From: Alphaproteobacteria bacterium
GTDB lineage: Bacteria; Pseudomonadota; Alphaproteobacteria; Caulobacterales; Maricaulaceae
Assembly: GCA_018222865.1 (NCBI GenBank)
Contig: JAAEZM010000016.1
Coordinates: 1-41,155 of the forward strand
Direction of reading: 5' to 3'
DNA: 41,155 bases
In this document: piece by piece, positions 2,927-19,249 of the stretch
Layout of the letters: every line of letters begins with the position of its first letter
Position numbering within the stretch: position 1 is the first letter of the stretch
Program-made: the position numbers and the translations under genes
Notes under the pieces: generated by a model
The model's input: only the letters and a program-made list of their open reading frames with translations
Told to the model about the DNA's origin: nothing
The model's database searches: none

Positions 2927-3168
2927 TGCCCCCTCCCGCGTGTGTCGAGCAGGGCAATGAGCGGGCACGGCTCATGGCGATATTCATAGATGATGCCCCG
3001 CACCCCGCCATAGGCGCAGCTATGGCCTTCGGCGGCGGTCAGGCGATAGTGGGGGCTGACGGGCGAGACCAACGAAATGGCCACCACAAACACCGGCCAG
3101 CGCAGAGTGAGCCAGCTCAGCACGAAGCAGAGATTAGCGAGACGATTGAAGTCAGGGCGAAGGCTCAT
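2920..3168 (-). CDS. Small membrane protein downstream of coupling protein
   Basis: 82 aa. The ATG at 3168 forms an ATGA overlap with the stop of the coupling-protein gene, which fixes this start over longer alternatives. One hydrophobic segment (about residues 13-38, FVLSWLTLRWPVFVVAISLV) predicts a single membrane pass; the rest is short and polar with two Cys. No family recognised. Tight coupling suggests it acts with the membrane-anchored coupling protein. Confidence 0.6.
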   Translation of the reverse strand: MSLRPDFNRLANLCFVLSWLTLRWPVFVVAISLVSPVSPHYRLTAAEGHSCAYGGVRGIIYEYRHEPCPLIALLDTRGRGQW

Positions 3169-5000
3169 GAGCGCCTCCAGAAGCGGAGCGCCCGCAGAGC
3201 ATTCAGAACCAGCAGCGCCAGCTTGCCCGGCCACATATAGCGCCACAGACGGAGCCTCACCGGCAGGCGATAAGGCTTGCCGTAAAACGGATTGATGGCC
3301 TGCATATGTCGGAAAGGGGCGACTGCGGCGATACTTGGTAGATCGACCAAGGCCGGGCGGTTTTTCTTGAGCCAGAGGATGGCCTTGCCCGAACGGCGTA
3401 TCTGTTCAGCCGTCATGACGGGTCGCCCGGATTCGCGCATGCTGAAACCCGAAACGCTCAGCGGGCCTTTGCCCTGGCCGCTATAGTCGTATTCCATGAA
3501 AGACTGCTGGCCGAGATACTCTTCAAGCAGCTTGAGGGTTTCAGGCTCGGATTGGCCGGGCAGGACCAGAAACGCATCCTGCTCTGAAAACAGAGTATCG
3601 AGCGTTTCTTTTGAGTAAGCCGCGCGAAAGGCCGAGAGCGACTGAATATAGACACATATCTTGATCGAAAACGCTCTTGCCCACGTTAAGAGGGAGCGTA
3701 AATCTTTGATCAACAGGTTTGATCCTTCGTTCGCCTGATAATAGACCGGCTTGGATTTGTTGGGGTGGCGTTTCCATTCATTCATCATGCAGAACATGAT
3801 GAGCTCAATGACCTTCTTGTTGGCTTCAAGGCGGCTCGCATCCGCGACGAGGAACACAGATACCGTACGCCCCGGCTCTTTCTGATCGGAAAAGCGGAAC
3901 GTGCTGTCTTGCGTGATCTTGTGAGCGCGTGAGGTGCCGTTAAACGGCTCCATCGACTGGATTGAACCAGTGAGAAAGCTCTCGACAACGCGCTGGTCTT
4001 CACTTGTGAGAAGGTCCGCCACATTGGCGGCCATGCCGCGCAGATATTCTGCGAAGCGTTCAACGTCTTGCGGGTCTTGGCAATCGATCCACGGGCTTTC
4101 TTGGAGCGCAAAAGGAACCGGATTTCCGCCCTCGTCTATCAGGCGGTCCGCTATCCATTGTGCGGTCCACAGGAGCTGTTCGCGATCCTGTAAAAGCACA
4201 AGGCTATCATTGAGACAGGCCTCATAGCCCTTGACCAAAAGATTGGCGCAAAGGGCAAAGCGAATAAAAAGTCTGCTTCCGTCATCCCAGAAGCGATTGT
4301 TATTGCCGCCTTCGCCACCACTCTTGGGATCGGGATGGATTAGAACGGCGAATTCTTGCAGATCGTTCGCGACATCCTGAATGCCGCCGGGACGATAGAA
4401 GTTGTCAGCCAGAGCAGCGCTGGGATTGTAACGCGCTGAAGGCCCGAGAATGTCTTCGAAGATTGCTCCAAAGTTCAGCACGTGAACCTCTTCACCGCGA
4501 TCTTCGAGCGCCTTTTTATAGATGCAGGCCGAAGCCCCTTTCAGAGAGTTGATCGTTTTGCTCTCGCGGATTGAGAGTGTGTTGACGCCGTTGTGTCCGA
4601 CATCTTTTTTACTCCCGGACGGGCCAAGCACGCAGGCCATCGTGAAGTCTGCGAAAATCGCATCGCGGCCAAGCTTCCCCCAATAGGGGCCGGGATGAGG
4701 AAACGAGATCAGATCATGCGCGAGTTCGCGCTTGGATCTGACCCAGCCGCCCGTGCCCTTGTTGCCGCGCGGAATCTTGCGATCCAGCCAGCCGAAGGTT
4801 TCACCCAGCAGCCAGAAGCCCTCTGAGACAAGCAAGGTGCCCGTCACGGCCAGCGCGAGTGTTGCGCCCGCCGTGACAAATCCGAACTCACCCGACGCCC
4901 AGAAGACCGGACCGGAGTATCGCAGGGCGTAAGCACTGCCCGCCGCAACAGCGAGACGAGCGAGCGTGTGGCCCTGATTCCATTTTCGACGATACGCCAT
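3165..5000 (-). CDS. VirD4/TraG-like coupling protein with degenerate Walker motifs
   Basis: 611 aa, starting at the ATG of the TGATG overlap with the VWA gene (a longer frame to 5192 lies wholly inside that gene). Two N-terminal membrane segments (about residues 12-28 and 38-66) precede a cytoplasmic domain with VirD4/TraG signatures: a P-loop-like GPSGSKKDVG (126-135), VHVLNFG and YNP (about 173-193), a YIQSLSAF segment (451-458), and GKAILWLKKNRP near the C-terminus. Canonical family motifs are altered. The P-loop has Lys for the last Gly and Asp for Ser/Thr, the usual DPKGE is SLKGA (152-156), and the Walker B DE is NE (424-425). Type IV coupling proteins bring the relaxase-DNA complex to the secretion channel. 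This one may be a non-hydrolysing relative. Confidence 0.85.
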   Translation of the reverse strand: MAYRRKWNQGHTLARLAVAAGSAYALRYSGPVFWASGEFGFVTAGATLALAVTGTLLVSEGFWLLGETFGWLDRKIPRGNKGTGGWVRSKRELAHDLISFPHPGPYWGKLGRDAIFADFTMACVLGPSGSKKDVGHNGVNTLSIRESKTINSLKGASACIYKKALEDRGEEVHVLNFGAIFEDILGPSARYNPSAALADNFYRPGGIQDVANDLQEFAVLIHPDPKSGGEGGNNNRFWDDGSRLFIRFALCANLLVKGYEACLNDSLVLLQDREQLLWTAQWIADRLIDEGGNPVPFALQESPWIDCQDPQDVERFAEYLRGMAANVADLLTSEDQRVVESFLTGSIQSMEPFNGTSRAHKITQDSTFRFSDQKEPGRTVSVFLVADASRLEANKKVIELIMFCMMNEWKRHPNKSKPVYYQANEGSNLLIKDLRSLLTWARAFSIKICVYIQSLSAFRAAYSKETLDTLFSEQDAFLVLPGQSEPETLKLLEEYLGQQSFMEYDYSGQGKGPLSVSGFSMRESGRPVMTAEQIRRSGKAILWLKKNRPALVDLPSIAAVAPFRHMQAINPFYGKPYRLPVRLRLWRYMWPGKLALLVLNALRALRFWRRS

Positions 5001-5875
5001 CACTCGGCCCCGTGACGCAGACGCGTCAACTCGACACTGTCGGCACCGTTTTCGATGAACAGCGTGGACCAGAAGGCCCGTAGCTCGGCGTGGGTGATGA
5101 ATTCGAGGCCGGGTCCCGGAAGTGTTGTAGACTCGACCAGCAGCAGGTTTACATGAGTGCCCGTGAGAGAGTCTGGCCGAACGGCTTCCCACCTTGGCTG
5201 GGATGCAAAGATTTCATACGGTGGGGCTGAATTCCTGACCTGCCCGAAAAGTGCCGTCTCAGAAGCTTCGAGCCCATCTGTGAGGAACCAGAGCGTGCGT
5301 TGCTCACCATCGAAGAATTCACTTCTGGAAATGGCTTGAAGCGATGCGAGAATAGGACTCTCAAGAGCTCGCAATTCATCATCGCGCAAAGCACCGAGAA
5401 CATGCTCGACCATGGTGCGGTATGCTTCTCGCGCCTCCTGCGCCTGCCTCGCCAGATATTGCGGCGTTTGTGACGGGGCACCGATTTGAGCGAGTTCCAG
5501 CACTGTTTCTGGGGGACGGCATTGCGACCCTACCGGTGGCAGGAAGGAGCTCGCAGCATCGCGCGTGGTCGTGAAAATAGAAATTCGAGCATTTGGCGGC
5601 GCTTCATCATAAGCGCGCATCAGAGCCGTCTCGTAGTCGCGCCACTGAGCCGCCGACGATGACCTTGTAAATGAGGCGTCCGCAAAGAACGCGACCTGAT
5701 GCTGATCCGCACGGCTGAAACAGTATGTGGCCGTGTCGATACGCTCGGTTGAGAGATAAGCGCTCAGGCCAATGATGGCGGCGGTGATGACCGCGATTGG
5801 AATGACCGCAAGCGCCGCGATCATTGGCCAGTTTGGTCCGCCTCCATAGGACGGACTGTAGCTACCAAAACCCAT
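5000..5875 (-). CDS. Membrane-anchored VWA-like domain protein
   Basis: 291 aa. There is one N-terminal membrane segment (about residues 17-40), then an extracytoplasmic domain. FFADASFT (64-71) resembles the first metal-binding loop DxSxS/T of von Willebrand A domains, and LWFLTDG (195-201) resembles their later TDG strand, so a VWA-like fold is likely though the middle Thr loop is not obvious. The gene sits 2 bp after the 443-aa membrane protein and overlaps the coupling protein by TGATG, so the three are probably made together. I infer a cell-envelope partner for the coupling protein. No named family recognised. Confidence 0.7.
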   Translation of the reverse strand: MGFGSYSPSYGGGPNWPMIAALAVIPIAVITAAIIGLSAYLSTERIDTATYCFSRADQHQVAFFADASFTRSSSAAQWRDYETALMRAYDEAPPNARISIFTTTRDAASSFLPPVGSQCRPPETVLELAQIGAPSQTPQYLARQAQEAREAYRTMVEHVLGALRDDELRALESPILASLQAISRSEFFDGEQRTLWFLTDGLEASETALFGQVRNSAPPYEIFASQPRWEAVRPDSLTGTHVNLLLVESTTLPGPGLEFITHAELRAFWSTLFIENGADSVELTRLRHGAE

Positions 5876-9925: not shown

Positions 9926-10705
9926 ATGGAACGGGGGCAACTCTCTAATATGCAGCGTGATACCGCTTGGGAAGGCATCGGCCTTGCCGAGCGTTCACAA
10001 TTGAGCGTGCTGCCAGATGGCAGCGATCCGAATAATCCCACGCCGGAACAGCTGGCGTTCCAGAAGCGATTGGAGCGTGAACGCGAGCTGGATGAGAACT
10101 TTGGACGGGGCGACATAGCCCAAGACGTTGGCCGTGTCGCTACAGGTGCCGGCGCTGCCCGCCAGACAGAGCTTCGCATTGAAGAAGCGCGTCGCAAAGA
10201 CCGCAAAGAGCAAACTGACCGGGCTATCCTTCTATCGACGTTATCTAATATGGAGGCCGACCTGTCCGCTCGCTACGGCGAACACTTTGCCGATAACCTT
10301 TTTGCAGACCTGCGTGAAGACGGATTGATCGAAGACGATGAATACCAACGCATCATGGGAATTGAAGATGTCGAAGAACGCCGCCGTGCGATTGCGGCAG
10401 CGATTCAGGAGGGGATAGATGAAGGCCGCATCCAGCCAGATGACTTGGAAGGTCACGAATGGGCGCAAGACTGGCTAGAGGCTCACCGCGCTGCTGCGGC
10501 GGAGCGTGACTTAGAGGTCGAGCGCGGCCTGTCTGGTGAGCTCAGCGCTGATCAAATGACCGTTGCCGCGCAAGATGAGGCGGCTTTAGCGAGCATCTCA
10601 GAAACACCTGATCGAGAAAGCGATTTCGAGGCCGCGACCGTGGATACCGAACGAGATAATGCTTTGGACAACAATCAAGGAGGCTTCAATCTCGGCGGAT
10701 TGTAG
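9926..10705 (+). CDS. Acidic, helical hypothetical protein
   Basis: 259 aa, very rich in E, D, R and A, with long helical stretches (about residues 45-60 and 75-200) and a Gly/Asn-rich tail ending GGFNLGGL. It has no membrane segment or signal peptide, and no enzymatic motif. GAGGAA precedes the ATG very closely; an in-frame ATG at 9950 is an alternative start. The protein could be a structural or scaffold component or a secreted substrate of a mating channel, but nothing in the sequence decides. It converges on the secreted-protein gene with only 5 bp between stops. Confidence 0.65.
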   Translation: MERGQLSNMQRDTAWEGIGLAERSQLSVLPDGSDPNNPTPEQLAFQKRLERERELDENFGRGDIAQDVGRVATGAGAARQTELRIEEARRKDRKEQTDRAILLSTLSNMEADLSARYGEHFADNLFADLREDGLIEDDEYQRIMGIEDVEERRRAIAAAIQEGIDEGRIQPDDLEGHEWAQDWLEAHRAAAAERDLEVERGLSGELSADQMTVAAQDEAALASISETPDRESDFEAATVDTERDNALDNNQGGFNLGGL

Positions 10706-10710
10706 TTGCT

Positions 10711-11241
10711 CTATGGATTTGTGAACGGTGTGTCAGCCGAAGCAGTCAAAAGCATTCCGGCCGTTTTGGCTTCATCAGCCAAGGATTCAATCGTATCGAC
10801 GCTGTAAGCTTCCGAAATGCTATAGGATTCGCTCTCGGGGTAGGTAAGCCCTGCTATGTGGAAGCGTATCCCTGTCCCATTAGGCATAGGCTCGTGATGA
10901 ACGAAGCACTCAGCTTCAACTCCTCTATTGCGAAAAGAGTTCACCAGTGCCGTCCCAAGGAATTCAGGGCTGTATTCGCCCAAGTCCTGTCCAGCAAAGA
11001 TCGAAATTCCGACGTTCCCGGTATGCTCGCGAGCATAACTGTGGGCGCTGGTGGATGCGTTTATTTGACGACCCGTCGATGTTGTTAGCAGTTCCCCACA
11101 AGAAGCCTCTTCCCGAGGTTCAAGCCCGTTTTCGGCAGCAGAAGCAGATGCGTCGTTTGCACAAGCCGGAGCCGCGAAAAGCGTTGTCAACGCTACCGCT
11201 CCTGCTACTGCTCCACCTCTAACTCTTCCAAACGCTCCCAT
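10711..11241 (-). CDS. Secreted hypothetical protein
   Basis: 176 aa from the ATG at 11241 (MGAFGRVRGG), giving a basic start, a hydrophobic core VAGAVALTTLFAA and an ACA-ND cleavage site typical of signal peptidase I; the longer frame upstream would bury this signal. The mature part is about 145 residues, has two Cys (possible disulfide) and no recognised domain. It is the only leftward gene in this section and starts 109 bp left of the first arm of the 16-bp inverted repeat at 11350, so its promoter may lie in the flanked segment. Confidence 0.55.
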   Translation of the reverse strand: MGAFGRVRGGAVAGAVALTTLFAAPACANDASASAAENGLEPREEASCGELLTTSTGRQINASTSAHSYAREHTGNVGISIFAGQDLGEYSPEFLGTALVNSFRNRGVEAECFVHHEPMPNGTGIRFHIAGLTYPESESYSISEAYSVDTIESLADEAKTAGMLLTASADTPFTNP

Positions 11242-11349
11242 ATCAGCCAATAAAAATGCGTTAAATATAGGTGATTTATAGCAAGAATATTGCGAATTTG
11301 CAAGATTTCTATATTTGCTATTAAAAAGTCGAAAAACCGCCAATTCTCT

Positions 11350-11507
11350 TGAACAGAATGTATGATTTTGTTTATTATATTGACGTTATTATATTTTCTC
11401 TTAACGTGAGCGGCGCGCAAAGCCAGCGTGAGCGCGATTGAGGGGCCGGAATCCGGCGTGGAATCAGGGAGTGTGAGACGGTGAAACAGATTCATACATT
11501 CTGTTCA
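11350..11507. repeat. Perfect 16-bp inverted repeats flanking a 126-bp segment
   Basis: TGAACAGAATGTATGA at 11350-11365 and its exact reverse complement at 11492-11507. The match stops abruptly on both sides, and no target duplication flanks the arms, so this does not look like a transposon remnant. The enclosed DNA has an AT-rich left part with two TATAAT hexamers facing left and a TTGACG facing right. A 203-aa tyrosine recombinase starts 29 bp to the right and a leftward secreted-protein gene starts 109 bp to the left. The layout suits an invertible promoter switch. Confidence 0.7.
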
Positions 11508-11535
11508 GCCGACTTGCAGGAAAGGAGTGCCCGAT

Positions 11536-12147
11536 ATGCCACGCGATTCAAGCGCCTACAGGGGTATGACGCTATTCACCGATGTCGGTGAGCGCAAATA
11601 TCTGAACTCGGCAGAGCGCCAGACCTTCTATGACTGTCTGGGGATACTGGACGATCCCAAAGACCGTAGCTTTTGCGAAATGATCTTCTGGACCGGATGC
11701 AGACCGTCCGAAGCGCTGGCGCTCACGGCGCTTAATATCGATGTGGCCGAGCGGGTAGTTGTGATCCGGTCTCTGAAAAAGCGCGGTGAAATGAAGGGGC
11801 GGCATTATCGCCCGGTTCCGGTGCCCGATGAATTCATGGAACGTCTGGCTATGCTTCACGGTCTACGTGGTGAAGCCGCGCGCCGGGATGAGCGCCTGTG
11901 GAGCTTTAGCCGGACCACAGGCTGGGCGCGTATGAAAGTCGTGATGGAAGCCGCCGGTCTGCATGGAGAGAAGGCTTGCGCCAAGGGGCTACGGCATGGC
12001 TATGGCGTCCACGCGGCGGTGAACCGGGTGCCGGAAACCCGCATCAAAAAATGGCTGGGCCATGAGAGCCTTGCCACGACCGAAATCTATCTCGACATGG
12101 CCGCCCCCGAAGACCGCCACATGGCAGAGAGAATGTGGGCGGCTTGA
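11536..12147 (+). CDS. Short tyrosine recombinase (catalytic domain only)
   Basis: 203 aa from the ATG at 11536, with AAAGGAG 8 nt upstream (an in-frame GTG at 11527 overlaps this site and is rejected). Catalytic residues: Arg56 in TGCRPSEAL, Lys81/82 in SLKKRG, KGLRH (Lys150, Arg153), His176 in WLGHESLATT, and Tyr185 in IYLDM. Lys in the usual His position of the HxxR box is common in one group of plasmid and island recombinases. There is no room for the N-terminal core-binding domain of Xer-type enzymes, so the size matches FimB/FimE-like invertases. The 16-bp inverted repeat directly upstream is its obvious candidate substrate. It could instead help resolve the element. Confidence 0.88.
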   Translation: MPRDSSAYRGMTLFTDVGERKYLNSAERQTFYDCLGILDDPKDRSFCEMIFWTGCRPSEALALTALNIDVAERVVVIRSLKKRGEMKGRHYRPVPVPDEFMERLAMLHGLRGEAARRDERLWSFSRTTGWARMKVVMEAAGLHGEKACAKGLRHGYGVHAAVNRVPETRIKKWLGHESLATTEIYLDMAAPEDRHMAERMWAA

Positions 12148-12287: not shown

Positions 12288-13427
12288 ATGGGGAAGCAAT
12301 TTACATTTTACGAATTTTTCGCGGGCGGCGGGATGGCGCGAGCTGGTCTCGGCGACGGTTGGCAGTGTCTGTTTGCCAATGACTTTGACCGCAAGAAAGC
12401 AAAAACCTATGCAGCCAATTGGGGTTGTGAGGATTTTGTTTGCGACGATATTCGCAACCTTGCGCCTCCGGAGATGAGCGGACACCCTGATCTCGCATGG
12501 GGTTCTTTTCCTTGCCAAGACCTGTCGTTGGCTGGTGGCGGCGCCGGGCTGCGGGGTGATCGCTCAGGAACATTCTGGCCCTTTATCGCCCACATGCGTG
12601 AGCTGAGAGAGCTTGGCCGTGCGCCAAAAATTATTGCCCTCGAGAACGTGCTTGGAACGCTCACATCTCATAAGGGTGCAGATTTTCGGGCTATTTGCCA
12701 GACGTTGAAAGAGCTCGGCTATCGATTTGGCGCGGTTGTTGTGGACGCATCGCTATTTTTGCCTCAATCCCGACCGCGATTGTTTGTAATTGGAATTGAC
12801 AAGGGCCTATCACAGCCAGAAGCCCACACCATTCCTAATCCAACATGGCACACACCCGGCATCATGCGGGCCCACGAAGCGCTTCCGGAAAGACTTCAGG
12901 AAGATTGGATTTGGTGGTCTATGCCCGATCCGGCACCGCGGCGTCAGGATTTTATCGATATTATTGAAGAGAATCCGCGAAGCGTGTCTTGGCATACCAA
13001 GGCCGAGACTACTGCGCTTCTTTCCATGATGAGCGAAGTGAATCTGGCGAAGGTAGAGACGGCAAAACAAGCGGGTATTCCGATGGTGGGTGGCGTCTAT
13101 AAACGCACCCGCTACGAACATGGGATTAAAGTTCAGCGCGCCGAAGTGCGTTTTGATCGTGTTGCTGGATGCTTGCGGACGCCAGCCGGCGGGTCATCAC
13201 GACAGCTTATTTTAAAAGTCGAAGGCAATAAAATAAGATCACGGCTGATATCGGCGCGAGAGACGGCGCGCCTAATGGGTCTGCCGGACTCCTATGAATT
13301 GCCCACCGCATACAACGAAGCTTACCATCTTACAGGGGATGGTGTTGCCGTACCTGTCGTGCGACATTTAGCTGAGAATTTATTTGAGCCTGTGCTGAAG
13401 CTATGCCGGGTCAAGGAGGTCGCGTGA
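12288..13427 (+). CDS. DNA (cytosine-5) methyltransferase
   Basis: 379 aa. Motifs in order: I FFAGGGMARAGL (10-21, SAM binding), IV FPCQDLS with catalytic Cys76, VI ENV (119-121), VIII QSRPRLF (160-166), and X GDGVAVPVVRHLA near the end. It methylates C5 of cytosine in a specific DNA site, normally protecting host DNA from a partner nuclease. A GGAG lies about 6 nt before the ATG. The stop overlaps the GTG start of the next gene (GTGA), linking it to the PD-(D/E)XK-like protein. The recognition sequence cannot be read from the protein; the region between motifs VIII and IX (about 190-300) would define it. Confidence 0.95.
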   Translation: MGKQFTFYEFFAGGGMARAGLGDGWQCLFANDFDRKKAKTYAANWGCEDFVCDDIRNLAPPEMSGHPDLAWGSFPCQDLSLAGGGAGLRGDRSGTFWPFIAHMRELRELGRAPKIIALENVLGTLTSHKGADFRAICQTLKELGYRFGAVVVDASLFLPQSRPRLFVIGIDKGLSQPEAHTIPNPTWHTPGIMRAHEALPERLQEDWIWWSMPDPAPRRQDFIDIIEENPRSVSWHTKAETTALLSMMSEVNLAKVETAKQAGIPMVGGVYKRTRYEHGIKVQRAEVRFDRVAGCLRTPAGGSSRQLILKVEGNKIRSRLISARETARLMGLPDSYELPTAYNEAYHLTGDGVAVPVVRHLAENLFEPVLKLCRVKEVA

Positions 13428-14284
13428 GTGACGAGATTCCGTGTCAAAAAGATCCGGCACTAAAGCAGAGAATTGATGAGTATGCTGAAGACCTGAAAAC
13501 TCAAGGCCACCTTATAGGAAGTCACGGCCTTGATGAGGCAGAATTCTATGAAAGCGGAATTTTTGAGGGGGCAATTCAGCGGCTTAGGGGCCAGATATCA
13601 GCGTCTATGGGGCCAAAGAAAGCCTTTGTGCAGCACATCCTTAACCACATGCAGGATCAAGGGTTCATCTCGGACTGGCTCGAAGCAGGCAGTCAAAACC
13701 GCCACGATTATTCGGTGACATTGCCCTCTTCAAAAGTTGCAGCGATCGAACTCAAGGGCTGCTTAGACGGGAATAATACAAACATCTCAGAGCGGCCGCC
13801 TCACGCAGATGAGTTTGTTGTTTGGAGCGTTTGCCAGAATAAGGGCGCAGATCCGAGACACAATTTGTGGTCGGGCGTGCACGTTCGATTCTCTGCCGAC
13901 ATAATTGCCGAAGAAAAACGTGTTGATGGCTTAATCGTCTGGGATTGGCTGTGTAATACGGCGGCCCGCAAATGCCCCAAAGTTGCAAACAGGAAAGACC
14001 GGTTGGTCGAGGTGGGACCGTATCAGTTGCCACCTCCGTGCATCTATACGTTTCCAGCTACCATCACTAGCCCGCGGAACAATCCAAACCCGCCAACAAG
14101 AGACGTAAGTGATATTGGTTTTCTTGACGCCATGCACCGCTGTTTTGGCGGTGAAGACAGTGAGATAAATCAGGTCGAGTTTGAGGCGGCAATGGCTGGC
14201 GTTGATCTCGTTAGGACTACGACCATTTGGCGAGACGGCACCGTCCGCCGAAAATCTAAACCCACCCCTATTCGGCGCTCCTGA
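13424..14284 (+). CDS. Probable PD-(D/E)XK restriction endonuclease partner
   Basis: 286 aa from GTG 13424, with AAGGAGGT just upstream and a GTGA overlap with the methyltransferase stop. HDYSV (Asp95) followed 14 residues later by AAIELKG (Glu109, Lys111) matches the D-x(n)-E-x-K active site of PD-(D/E)XK nucleases. The N-terminal 80 residues are helical; the C-terminal part has PPPCIYTFP and no known motif. Co-translation with a C5 methyltransferase makes a type II-like cleavage role likely. I cannot name the family, so the nuclease call rests on the motif and context. Confidence 0.7.
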   Translation: MSDEIPCQKDPALKQRIDEYAEDLKTQGHLIGSHGLDEAEFYESGIFEGAIQRLRGQISASMGPKKAFVQHILNHMQDQGFISDWLEAGSQNRHDYSVTLPSSKVAAIELKGCLDGNNTNISERPPHADEFVVWSVCQNKGADPRHNLWSGVHVRFSADIIAEEKRVDGLIVWDWLCNTAARKCPKVANRKDRLVEVGPYQLPPPCIYTFPATITSPRNNPNPPTRDVSDIGFLDAMHRCFGGEDSEINQVEFEAAMAGVDLVRTTTIWRDGTVRRKSKPTPIRRS

Positions 14285-14409
14285 ATTAACGACAAATCAT
14301 GGACTAGAGCGTACCTAACCGGGCTGCGATGAAGCAGGCTCCGAACGATTACGTTTTGAAATTCCAAGTTCGTTGGCATTTGTCATTCATACACATTTTA
14401 TATTTCGTG

Positions 14410-14438
14410 TTGACACGTTACTGTGTACGTTGTACACT
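14410..14438 (+). promoter_or_regulatory. Strong promoter with palindromic operator for the Z1 helicase
   Basis: TTGACA (14410-14415), 17-bp spacer, TACACT (14433-14438). A perfect palindrome GTGTAC-gtt-GTACAC (14423-14437) covers the spacer end and the -10, so a bound repressor would block RNA polymerase. The HTH at the start of the downstream protein makes autoregulation plausible. The stretch 14285-14409 shows nothing else. Confidence 0.65.
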
Positions 14439-14473
14439 TGCGGAAAATAATAACTGTGAACACGAGGTCGATT

Positions 14474-16828
14474 ATGCAGGACATTGTTGGAATTAATGAA
14501 ATAGCGGACATGGCAGGCGTAACGCGTCAAGCTGTGACAAACTGGCGGAGCCGAACAGCTGATTTTCCGCAACCCATTGCCGATTTGGCATCAGGTCCGG
14601 TTTTTCGCCGCGCGCAGATTCGCGCTTGGCTGTTGCGCAATAATCGAAAACTTGGAGACTTAAACGATAGCCTTGGGTTCTATCCCCGGCTGAGAAGCTA
14701 TCGAAATGATGACGATGCGCTTGCGGCCTGCATTAATAATGTCGCTGACGAACTCGAAGCCTCTGCAACATCTGATCAGAAGCCGGGCATGCTTCTAGGA
14801 AAGATCCAATCCGGAAAAACGCGCGCATTCGTTGGTGTAATTGCGGCCGCATTCGACAAGGGGTTTGACTTGGCTCTCGTCCTAACAAAAGGGACGAAAT
14901 CATTGTCCGCCCAAACTGTGTCTCGTCTGGGCGCAGATTTTTCTGAGTTCATTGAGGAAGATGAGCTGCTTGTTCTCGACATCATGCACCTGCCCGGCAA
15001 GCTAACTCGTGCCGAGCTTCGGCGGAAAATTGTGATTGTGGCGAAAAAGCAGGTGAAAAACTTGGAGCGATTGATTGAATTCATCGACAAGCAGGAAGGG
15101 CTTCAAAAACGCAAGGTCCTGTTGGTTGATGACGAGGCGGATCTTGCGAGCATTCGTTTCGTCAAGGAGCGCGACAAAGACGCGCTCGCTCAAGGAACAA
15201 TCGCAGAGCAGATGGACAAGATCCGCGGCATGAGCAGAGAGGTGGCGTTCCTACAAGTTACAGCAACGCCATATTCGCTGTATCTCCAACCCGAAGACTA
15301 CGACGACTCTGCGTTGGCTGAATGCGTTTTTAAACCGAAGCGCCCTGCATTCACCGAATTGTTGCCTATTCATGGCGGTTATGTGGGGGGCGACGATTAT
15401 TTCGGGTCATTCGATGACGACGATCCGCGCAACTTCCTTATGTATGAGGTTGCAGAATCCGAGCAGGATGCTCTCCGCAAACCAGACCAGCGTCGGATTA
15501 GCCCAGTTCATATTCTCAACAATGCAAACACAACCGGTCTGGTCCGCTCAGTTGTTACTTTCATTGTGGCGTCGTCTACGCGGCAGGAACAGCAACGGCG
15601 ATTGGGCGAGAAGGCCAAAAAGTTCTCGATGGTCATTCACAATGACATCCAGCGCAAAGCCCATCAGTGGCAAAACGACGTAATCGACTGGATTTTTGAA
15701 GCGCTTAAGCAATCCGCCGAAAAGGCCCCTAACGAATTAAGACCTTTGTTCAACGCGGCTTACGACGATTTGAAGCGGTCCGTTTCGGCGCATGGTGATT
15801 ATATGCCACCGCGAGATGATTGCTTTGATATGTTTGTAGACGCGCTAATCAGCGAAGACGTCGTTGTTGAGAAGGTGAACTCAGATGCCGAGGTTATGAA
15901 CCTATTGGACGAGAAGTCTGAGCTGAAATTGCGTACGCCCTATAACATTTTTGTTGGCGGCAACATTCTTGATCGTGGAATTACAATTCCGAACTTGATC
16001 GCGTTTTATTATGGGCGAAACCCGAAAACGATGCAGGCCGACACCGTGCTGCAACACTCTCGGATGTACGGTAATCGCGATCGAAGCGATTTAGCGGTGA
16101 CGCGCCTATATACCTCCCGGCGGGTTTATGACCGCCTCTACGCAATCAACTCATTTGAGAATTCACTTCGCGGTGCCTTTGAGTCTGGTGCTCACGACCA
16201 AGGGGTCGTTTTCCTTCAGACGGACGATTCCAGCGGGCGGCGCCGGAAGTCTAATGAGCGGATCAAAGTGCGGCCGTGCGCGCCCAATAAGGTCCTTTTG
16301 AGCAACCTTGTCTCAGTGTCTCCCGGCGCGATGCTTCTTCCATCAGACTTTCAGACAAAAGCCGGTTCGCGCATGGCGTCGATACAAGCCAAGCTCGACA
16401 AAATCATTAAGCAAGAATGGCGCGATACCGGCGATTTCGTTGAAGTTTCTCGGGACACGGCATTCGAGATCATCGACGAGATTGCCAAAAGCATGGAATT
16501 CGACGCCGTTGATTTCGAATGGGACGCAATGCGCGGTTTGATCGACTACTATGCCGACAAGGAAGACGATGACACCATTTTACTGATCGCCGAAACAGGC
16601 CGCGCCCTTGATCGCGAAAAATCCGGCGACAAATCAGGGCGCTCCATCCTTGGTACGGTATTGCGCGAAAAGGTTTTGAATATTCCTCGCTCCAAACCTG
16701 CATTAGTACTTCTCCAACAGCTTGGCGGGCGAGAGCGGGGCTGGACGGCGCATCCGTTTTGGTGGCCCATTCTTGCGCCACCAACAGACTCTGAGCCATG
16801 TGTATTTGCAACTAAAGTGGCTTCCTAG
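14474..16828 (+). CDS. Z1-domain SF2 helicase-like ATPase with N-terminal HTH
   Basis: 784 aa from the ATG at 14474, with GAGG 6 nt upstream; a longer frame would start inside the promoter. Residues about 1-55 form a helix-turn-helix (IADMAGVTRQAVTNWR, then GPVFRRAQIRAWL). The helicase part has Walker A GKIQSGKT (109-116), VDDEAD (218-223), a VTATPY motif III, GGNILDRGITIPNL motif V, and QHSRMYGNR motif VI (from 527), the signature of Z1 proteins. These are known in restriction-type cassettes with C5 methyltransferases, often with MutL/MORC-like and Vsr genes, which are absent here. It probably acts as the ATP-dependent DNA-remodelling subunit of the defence cassette. It has its own promoter 190 bp after the nuclease gene. 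Confidence 0.85.
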   Translation: MQDIVGINEIADMAGVTRQAVTNWRSRTADFPQPIADLASGPVFRRAQIRAWLLRNNRKLGDLNDSLGFYPRLRSYRNDDDALAACINNVADELEASATSDQKPGMLLGKIQSGKTRAFVGVIAAAFDKGFDLALVLTKGTKSLSAQTVSRLGADFSEFIEEDELLVLDIMHLPGKLTRAELRRKIVIVAKKQVKNLERLIEFIDKQEGLQKRKVLLVDDEADLASIRFVKERDKDALAQGTIAEQMDKIRGMSREVAFLQVTATPYSLYLQPEDYDDSALAECVFKPKRPAFTELLPIHGGYVGGDDYFGSFDDDDPRNFLMYEVAESEQDALRKPDQRRISPVHILNNANTTGLVRSVVTFIVASSTRQEQQRRLGEKAKKFSMVIHNDIQRKAHQWQNDVIDWIFEALKQSAEKAPNELRPLFNAAYDDLKRSVSAHGDYMPPRDDCFDMFVDALISEDVVVEKVNSDAEVMNLLDEKSELKLRTPYNIFVGGNILDRGITIPNLIAFYYGRNPKTMQADTVLQHSRMYGNRDRSDLAVTRLYTSRRVYDRLYAINSFENSLRGAFESGAHDQGVVFLQTDDSSGRRRKSNERIKVRPCAPNKVLLSNLVSVSPGAMLLPSDFQTKAGSRMASIQAKLDKIIKQEWRDTGDFVEVSRDTAFEIIDEIAKSMEFDAVDFEWDAMRGLIDYYADKEDDDTILLIAETGRALDREKSGDKSGRSILGTVLREKVLNIPRSKPALVLLQQLGGRERGWTAHPFWWPILAPPTDSEPCVFATKVAS

Positions 16829-17628: not shown

Positions 17629-18840
17629 TCAGGGTTCCGGGCCCCGCTCGTAGCGCTGGCGATCTTGTGCCAAGACGGCGCGGGTGCGCTCAAAACCTTC
17701 TGAAAGACGGTATTTGTAAAGCCGCAATCGTTGCCGTTCGGCCAGTTGATGAGAAATCAGCCGATCCAACTCATCCCGGTCACGTTTGAGCGCACGCTCT
17801 GCCTCTCTCGCATTGAAGTTCGCCGTCTTTCGATGCTCACCGCGCAACCGATCCCATAGGCCGCTCAGACCTTTGCGAAAGCGTGATTGGCGCAGCTTGT
17901 TTTCCAGCGCCTCCCGTTCGGCATGACGTTTCCTGAGCGCGGCCCTTTGCTTGCGTTGACGCGCGACTAGCGCCGTGCGACGTGCCTCAAATCTCTCCGC
18001 TGCCTTTGTATGCCGTTGGGTCACATCGTCAGCGATCCGATCCAGAGCGTTTTTCATGTCACGCGCCATTTGCGCCTTGGCATTATCGACAGACGGCAAT
18101 TCAACCTTGCCGAGGCGTTCCCGCACATCACGAACCTTGAGGCCAAGCCATTTGTGGAGGGCGTAAACTTCGAGATTGTGGTCAATCACCACGAAGGCAC
18201 GGCGATGCCCGCGCGCCAGCTTGAAGCCGCGCTCATCCAGAGCAGCCTTGAGGGCAGCGGGCGAGTCCGAAAGCGTCCAAGCGTCCTGTAGCGCCGCCTT
18301 TATGGCGCGCGGGTCTTTTCCCTGCCGCTTGGCATGTTGCCATTCAGCGAGCGTGAAATTGCGCGGATTGCGCCGGGCTGGATCAATCAAGCCGTCCGGC
18401 ATCTTCCAGCCATGTTCGACGAACAAATCGCGCGTCAACTCTACCAGCTTGCGCTTGGTAAAGGGCAGCGGAACGGCCTTCATTGTCTCCACGTCAATCC
18501 GAGACCAGACGACATGCGCATGGCGGCGGCCTTTCTTCTCGTGAAAAACGATGGCGCGGCTTTGACCATCAAGCCCCAGCGCCATTTCGGCTCGATCTAT
18601 GGCCTTGATAAAGTCCGTTGTGGCGACGCGCGCTTTCTCAGGAGGATTGACCGAGAGGCTATAGAGAAACTGACGGCATTTCGTGCCGCGTGACAGAGCG
18701 TAAGCCTCATTCAGTGCACCAGCGAGCGATTGCGCAGCAAATCCTCGCAACTCATATAGCTCAATATGCTCATTCTCGGGTTTCATGAGATGAACCGCCA
18801 GATCGCGCGCACCCCCGCGTTGATTTCCGACCAGCATCAT
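17629..18840 (-). CDS. Relaxase, MobA/VirD2-type
   Basis: 403 aa from the ATG at 18840, 4 nt after the MobC stop with GAGGG upstream; a TTG 5 codons earlier is less likely. The N-terminal nuclease domain has GNQRGGARDLAVHLM, RGTKCRQFLYSLS, and the metal site FHEKKGRRHAHVVWSR (His100, His107, His109). The C-terminal half is a charged coiled coil. Relaxases nick oriT and lead the strand through a coupling protein and channel. The metal motif is HE-x5-HxH rather than the common HxDx4HxH, and the first motif has His where VirD2-like enzymes have Tyr. It looks like a distinct alphaproteobacterial branch. Confidence 0.85.
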   Translation of the reverse strand: MMLVGNQRGGARDLAVHLMKPENEHIELYELRGFAAQSLAGALNEAYALSRGTKCRQFLYSLSVNPPEKARVATTDFIKAIDRAEMALGLDGQSRAIVFHEKKGRRHAHVVWSRIDVETMKAVPLPFTKRKLVELTRDLFVEHGWKMPDGLIDPARRNPRNFTLAEWQHAKRQGKDPRAIKAALQDAWTLSDSPAALKAALDERGFKLARGHRRAFVVIDHNLEVYALHKWLGLKVRDVRERLGKVELPSVDNAKAQMARDMKNALDRIADDVTQRHTKAAERFEARRTALVARQRKQRAALRKRHAEREALENKLRQSRFRKGLSGLWDRLRGEHRKTANFNAREAERALKRDRDELDRLISHQLAERQRLRLYKYRLSEGFERTRAVLAQDRQRYERGPEP

Positions 18841-18844
18841 GGCG

Positions 18845-19249
18845 CTAGCCCTCAACTTTGAGGCCCAGTGCCGTTATCAGTTCACGGCGCATGGTTCGGA
18901 TATCAAAACAAGCTTGGGTAAGCTCAGCGATCAGCTCATCTGTGACAGGCAGAGCACCCAAATTCGCCGCCTTGGCGATCTGGTTCATGTTTGAGGCCAG
19001 ACGAGATTGCCCGAGTGTTCCGAGCAGCTTTGCAAGCGTCTTGTCATCACGAGACGGGCGGCGGCTTTTGCGGCGAGGCTTAGCCTCATCACCCAGTGTC
19101 CGACGCCGGACATATTCGCTAACCGTCAAGTTTCCGGCGCGCTCTTTGAGAAGGGCTTTCTCTGACGGTGTAAGACGGATGCAGAATTGACCCGCGACTT
19201 CTCGTTTGGGCGCGGCTTTAGCAAATGAGCGGTTGAGATGAGTTGTCAT
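18845..19249 (-). CDS. mobC: MobC-like mobilization accessory protein
   Basis: 134 aa. RLTPSEKALLKERAG and TVSEYVRRRTLG form the ribbon-helix-helix-like N-terminal part, and LGQSRLASNMNQIAKAANLGALPV is the characteristic MobC motif. MobC proteins bind oriT, help open the strands and recruit the relaxase. It precedes the relaxase by 4 bp and its ATG overlaps the TGA of a short upstream frame. A GGAG lies about 11 nt upstream. Confidence 0.9.
   Translation of the reverse strand: MTTHLNRSFAKAAPKREVAGQFCIRLTPSEKALLKERAGNLTVSEYVRRRTLGDEAKPRRKSRRPSRDDKTLAKLLGTLGQSRLASNMNQIAKAANLGALPVTDELIAELTQACFDIRTMRRELITALGLKVEG

Follow-up and report, generated by a model that had tools for sequence, protein, structure and literature searches.

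A putative invertible promoter and start codon shared by a small tyrosine recombinase and a divergent secreted-protein gene on an alphaproteobacterial island

We analyzed a stretch of 41,155 nucleotides from an alphaproteobacterium (contig JAAEZM010000016.1 of assembly GCA_018222865.1, positions 1 to 41,155; hereafter the window). Upstream of a gene for a small tyrosine recombinase it carries two inverted arms, which we propose, with a probability of roughly two in three, to be complete crossover sites of this enzyme, with the segment of approximately 130 bp between them acting as an expression switch. The paired sites, their matched overlaps, a conserved promoter-like element in the segment and a reading-frame relation with the divergent gene Y are directly visible in the DNA. 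The coordinates below are those of the window.

9926–10705, plus strand: gene X, an ORF convergent with Y and the second conserved neighbor
10711–11343, minus strand: gene Y, a divergent ORF with a signal-peptide-like start, of a family common to the loci L062 and L003
11350–11374, plus strand: left core recombination site, TGAACAGAA-TGTATGA-TTTTGTTTA (outer half TGAACAGAA; overlap TGTATGA at 11359–11365; inner half TTTTGTTTA), from the dyad scan and the matched overlap
11366–11491, no strand: segment predicted to invert, on the basis of the two inverted sites rather than of an observed inversion
11380–11407, plus strand: predicted promoter facing the recombinase, TTGACG (11380–11385), a 16-nt spacer and TAACGT (11402–11407), by consensus match only
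11467–11483, plus strand: predicted ribosome site GGGAG (11467–11471) and start codon GTG (11481–11483), followed by AAA CAG, from the alignment
11483–11507, minus strand: right core recombination site, inverted, TGAACAGAA-TGTATGA-ATCTGTTTC (outer half TGAACAGAA; overlap TGTATGA, the complement of 11492–11498; inner half ATCTGTTTC), from the dyad scan and the matched overlap
11536–12147, plus strand: gene for a 203-aa tyrosine recombinase made up of the catalytic domain alone (PF00589, E = 8e-16)

In the present state, the promoter in the segment would drive the recombinase, and Y would be off because it is left without a promoter, a ribosome site and a start codon. The recombinase presumably acts on both sites and inverts the segment in cells, which would turn promoter, ribosome site and start codon toward Y. 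A short MKQ... leader (in the window it begins VKQ and reads MKQIHTFCSRELAV) would thereby be joined in frame to Y, which is presumably exported. If the promoter works as predicted, the same event would sever the recombinase from it, and recombinase expression would be traded for expression of the secreted protein.

The initial annotation had described perfect 16-bp arms with 126 bp between them, beside a 203-aa recombinase, and both the arms and their coordinates were found again. The left arm, TGAACAGAATGTATGA, occupies 11350–11365 and its exact reverse complement 11492–11507, with 126 bp between the arms; the recombinase ATG at 11536 follows the right arm after 28 bases. This pair is the sole perfect inverted repeat of at least 13 bp within 400 bp in the whole window, and according to a repeat tool it stretches to 33 nt at 82%. 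The arms had also been thought to end sharply; instead, either arm sits within a core site of 25 bp in total, which the dyad scan resolves into two half-sites flanking a 7-bp overlap. In the window the overlap TGTATGA is identical in both sites and read in opposite directions, and strand exchange would fall inside 11359–11365 and 11492–11498. No exact copy of the 16-mer arm other than the window's own was found in the window and the 81 loci searched.

The recombinase is 203 aa long from the ATG at 11536 and 206 aa long from a GTG at 11527. Its sole Pfam match is Phage_integrase (PF00589, profile positions 21–169 of 172), which upholds its earlier description as a catalytic-domain-only tyrosine recombinase of 203 aa. 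Residues R56, K82, R153, H176, and Y185, which we take to be the catalytic residues, are invariant in alignment A2; the HxxR motif (residues 150–153 of the window protein) reads [KR]GLR in the rows of A2 shown, the first His being replaced by Lys or Arg. By profile, the nearest solved structures are XerD, XerA, and XerH; among annotated proteins, plasmid recombinases come closest, with at most 47% identity. A kinship with FimB and FimE is not supported by the tree, in which a very long branch sets both apart from the group, nor by the NCBIfam profile PRK09871 (tyrosine-type DNA invertase subfamily), for which the score is 16 bits and the cut-off 222. The family is nearer to XerD-like enzymes and small plasmid recombinases.

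Related recombinases turned up, at E values up to 1e-30, in 11 of the 149 relatives searched, in 17 of 398 genomes from the order and in 15 of 385 from the class, sets which overlap. Of five loci taken from genome contigs, three were useful and were added, and L002, L006, and L007 (weak or partial matches) were left out before counting. The widened genome searches yielded no further locus of the near clade (385 redrawn class genomes gave only two known ones), the viral contigs held no relative, and phage records gave no match at 1e-10. The layout of the window corresponds in the tree to one supported clade of ten (support 100/96). These ten near loci, which come from distantly related bacteria, are the window copy (L001) and L003, L004, L005, L008, L009, L020, L021, L029, and L030, the recombinases of the nine relatives being 51–68% identical.

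Within 300 bp upstream of each gene the two best dyads were picked by half-site score only, ignoring the overlap, with a half-site motif that was composed after some of the ten loci had been seen. A pair is present in all ten near loci, 123–135 bp apart, and the overlaps of the picked pair agree at 7 of 7 positions, in inverted orientation, at every one of them. Between loci the overlap varies, with nine kinds among the ten. When the left and right sites of the ten loci are compared, mismatches occur at 47 of 180 half-site positions and at 0 of 70 overlap positions; within single sites, the dyad halves agree at 135 of 180 positions. Tyrosine recombinases swap strands across the overlap and hence need identical overlaps, so that an overlap matched within pairs but varied between loci is the signature of strand exchange between two sites.

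Exactly matched inverted pairs, 100–750 bp apart, were present in 24 of 42 chromosomal loci (including a few near copies, L015/L016 and L025/L026/L027), and direct pairs in none; 840 dinucleotide shuffles contained no matched pair in either the inverted or the direct orientation. Looser limits added inverted pairs in five more loci (L013, L017, L018, L034, and L037), and 13 of the 42 gave no convincing pair even then. Two layouts are found: both sites lie upstream of the recombinase gene, 123–147 bp apart, or they lie on either side of it, 662–721 bp apart. The second layout is seen at L011, L012, L013, L015, L016, L034, L036, and L044, where the gene would invert with the segment.

The interior of the segment is conserved as well. 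A TTGA element facing the recombinase lies at offset 30 from the left site (31 in L004) in all ten near loci, and in nine a TA hexamer comes after it at a spacing of 16 nt. The alignment shows a conserved AGGAGTGTG...RTGAAACAG, and just inside the right site each of the ten loci has RTG or TTG followed by AAACAR, preceded in eight at 8–10 nt by GGAG or AGGAG (weaker in L005 and L030). Promoter and ribosome site are predictions. As sequenced, the segment start codon begins a short frame, out of step with that of the recombinase in all ten loci (offset 1 in eight, offset 2 in two). Two TATAAT hexamers had been reported to face the secreted gene: the strings do exist on the minus strand, but the promoter reading has to be reversed, since the conserved promoter is on the plus strand and faces the recombinase; in the sequenced state, no expression of the secreted gene is expected. 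Use of the hexamers as a promoter of Y in that state was rejected, as no promoter on their strand is conserved among the nine relatives.

The relation of the segment to Y was read after a virtual inversion, in which the segment was turned in silico between the overlap centers and the strand toward Y was translated. The segment start codon is then in frame with Y, without an intervening stop, in 10 of 10 near loci, and in the window an open frame of 221 codons results. The distance from the start codon to a landmark in Y ranges from 44 to 75 codons among the ten loci, and the agreement in frame is therefore not that of a fixed copied length. As sequenced, a stop in the frame of Y occurs 2–38 nt inside the left site in all ten loci. 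In-frame start codons do occur outside the site, but none of the ten has a ribosome site (at least four matching bases) at such a start ahead of the signal-like region of Y; in-frame starts with such a site occur only in L001 and L030, at or past the end of that region. At one in three each, agreement at ten of ten loci has a chance of about 2e-5 if the loci are independent, a figure that serves as a guide only, as the ten are of common ancestry and not fully independent. Together, overlaps and frame (10 of 10 loci each) support the earlier suggestion of an invertible segment that could toggle both of its neighbors, the recombinase and the divergent secreted gene. Among ten distant loci with an upstream pair that were tested, the start-codon arrangement is not general: in L025 and L026 the frame of Y is open in both states, and in L045 Y is open after inversion yet has a ribosome site of its own.

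Both X and Y are kept in all ten near loci while the other neighbors differ, and they form two family pairs that have diverged (c1/c2 and c11/c12). Neither the X nor the Y of the window matches a Pfam or PHROGs family, and their relatives have weak, uncurated Pfam matches only; no X or Y genes were found on plasmids. The signal-peptide-like stretch at the N-terminus of Y was judged by eye, and the product of Y, encoded on the mobile island, is probably secreted or periplasmic. A model of the c1-family Y is a small five-helix protein (pLDDT 92.3) without a Foldseek match at E ≤ 0.001, the best being HdeA chains (E = 2.9 and 3.8); the model of the window's own Y was poor (pLDDT 47.7) and was left out. 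Separately, in the distant relatives L068 and L069 (around L033 and L045), where this upstream pair is also present, the divergent secreted proteins share an N-terminal QxKFFSTPxRGG motif and look repeat-rich and fiber-like.

A comparison of relatives for both orientations, proposed in the initial annotation as a check, returned only one: all ten near loci are in the recombinase-ON orientation, an outcome with a chance of about 0.002 at equal odds. No flipped copy was seen among the closely similar loci that were aligned (L015/L016; L025/L026; the plasmid pairs L055/L059 and L053/L054, and L046 with L048, L050, and L052), each main match having a single orientation across the region. Either flipping is rare, strongly biased or induced only under certain conditions, or flipped cells are short-lasting.

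One tentative and rather unlikely elaboration is a one-way, self-silencing commitment switch, in which the recombinase would be made only in the resting orientation and a flip to Y would remove its promoter. Flipped cells could not easily return, and their lineages would last only briefly or be selected against; this would account for the resting state of 10 of 10 loci. Such a switch would amount to terminal differentiation driven by DNA inversion and serving an island; to our knowledge, switches of this kind are hardly described in Alphaproteobacteria.

The uniform orientation of the ten loci would also be expected of a control region that does not invert, at which a protein, the recombinase or another, binds the dyads as operators and loops out the promoter. 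The operators would then be derived from a plasmid dimer-resolution site and the matched overlaps would be left over from a duplication, which is consistent with the spacing held near 131 bp and with the Rhodobacterales plasmid homologues L058 and L061, where a single perfect dyad, TTAACACTA-N7-TAGTGTTAA, lies upstream of the recombinase, as a resolution site would, and is possibly a dimer-resolution site. We nevertheless consider this unlikely: operators need no identical 7-bp overlap, yet the overlap is matched at ten of ten loci as the half-sites drift, the segment start codon fits the frame of Y only after inversion, and in some relatives the inverted pair flanks the recombinase gene at 662–721 bp. 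By eye, two TGAATCA...TGATTCA dyads with unlike centers were seen upstream of the Shewanella plasmid homologues (L053, L054, L055, L059, and L060).

The window begins in what is marked as the end of an island by a tRNA-Met at the contig end (2–78), overlapped by a gene for a 533-aa large serine recombinase (35–1636); a search of the window for direct repeats of this tRNA end, 13 bp or longer, found none. TraG/VirD4-like and MobP-relaxase-like genes and a MobA-like accessory gene (3165–5192 and 17629–19249), whose matches are below the curated cut-offs, make the island look mobilizable. A restriction set at 12288–16828, beside the tyrosine recombinase, comprises a cytosine methyltransferase, a match to a type II restriction enzyme (REase_II, 399 bits) and a Z1-domain helicase. 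Neighbors at other loci include a PifA match (L005), an IetS match with an AAA protein (L063), a HipA match (L066), a TraG-like protein (L062) and efflux proteins (L067). That the site pair serves the integration or movement of the island, or of a module of X, Y and the recombinase, would fit the occurrence of this module among differing neighbors in different genomes and that of distant relatives on plasmids. This is very unlikely, as the sites are inverted (none direct at 42 loci), so that a crossover between them would turn the DNA around rather than cut it out, and the island has its own serine recombinase beside the tRNA-Met at its end. Least probable of all is one recombination site folded from the two arms in island DNA that becomes single-stranded in conjugation, in the manner of CTX phage attP and integron attC, where only the folded strand is a substrate and the center is unpaired or mismatched: the strand does fold as a long hairpin (−31.3 kcal/mol vs. 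−17.9 for shuffles, z = −4.6) and the island has relaxase-like and TraG-like genes, but any inverted repeat folds likewise, each arm is itself a dyad (with the half-site agreement given above) and so usable as double-stranded DNA, the mismatches cluster in the half-sites, where a hairpin site would need pairing, and the frame relation with Y is left unexplained.

If the proposed expression switch is real, it would be a compact switch of Alphaproteobacteria: recombinase and target would share a single promoter and start codon that can be inverted, and the state of the switch would control the enzyme that sets it. It predicts an in-frame MKQ... leader on Y and loss of the recombinase transcript after inversion. 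It would also offer a route to more switches, through a search for recombinase genes accompanied by two inverted sites with one and the same overlap, an overlap that changes from locus to locus, and may explain the role of several small recombinases near defense and mobility genes.

Among known systems, fimS with FimB and FimE, hyxS and ipuS likewise have a recombinase of about 200 aa adjoining a short stretch that contains a promoter and inverted repeats. The repeats measure 9 bp in fimS, 16 bp in hyxS, as here, and 7 bp in ipuS, the last spanning 260 bp against approximately 130 bp in the window (PMC6083910). Inversion of ipuS is described as changing the C-terminus of its recombinase (PMC6083910). 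The fim-type recombinases are only remotely related to the one studied here, and the mechanism would work like fim-type inversion without membership in the FimB/FimE family. Unlike in these systems, one promoter would face the recombinase in one state, and the start codon would travel with the promoter, giving Y a new N-terminus. The Hin flagellar switch of Salmonella resembles the proposed one in having a promoter in invertible DNA and a recombinase gene tied to the switch; Hin is a serine recombinase, unlike the tyrosine recombinase here, whose gene lies outside the segment in this clade. The hin gene lies inside the invertible segment (PMC5903667).

The small tyrosine recombinases of plasmids in Acetobacteraceae, Rhodobacterales and Shewanella belong to the same protein family (at most 47% identity) and often adjoin partition or replication genes. 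They differ in that none of the 16 plasmid loci examined has an inverted pair and X and Y are absent; their role is presumably dimer resolution. Whereas that type of system has a single site on a circular replicon and direct action, the window has an inverted pair on a chromosomal island. A likeness to ICEclc bears only on the speculative one-way reading; ICEclc uses regulators, and we know of no DNA inversion in it. This mobile island commits a few cells to a special, transfer-competent state (PMC3395598, PMC6812849). In one genome survey of inversion signatures, none of four Alphaproteobacteria samples was positive (PMC5903667). The literature searched, in part as excerpts, held no system with such a shared promoter and start codon, and one may be in print. 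Compared with the known switches, the variant features of the proposed one are a promoter that serves enzyme and target alike and a start codon that moves with the segment.
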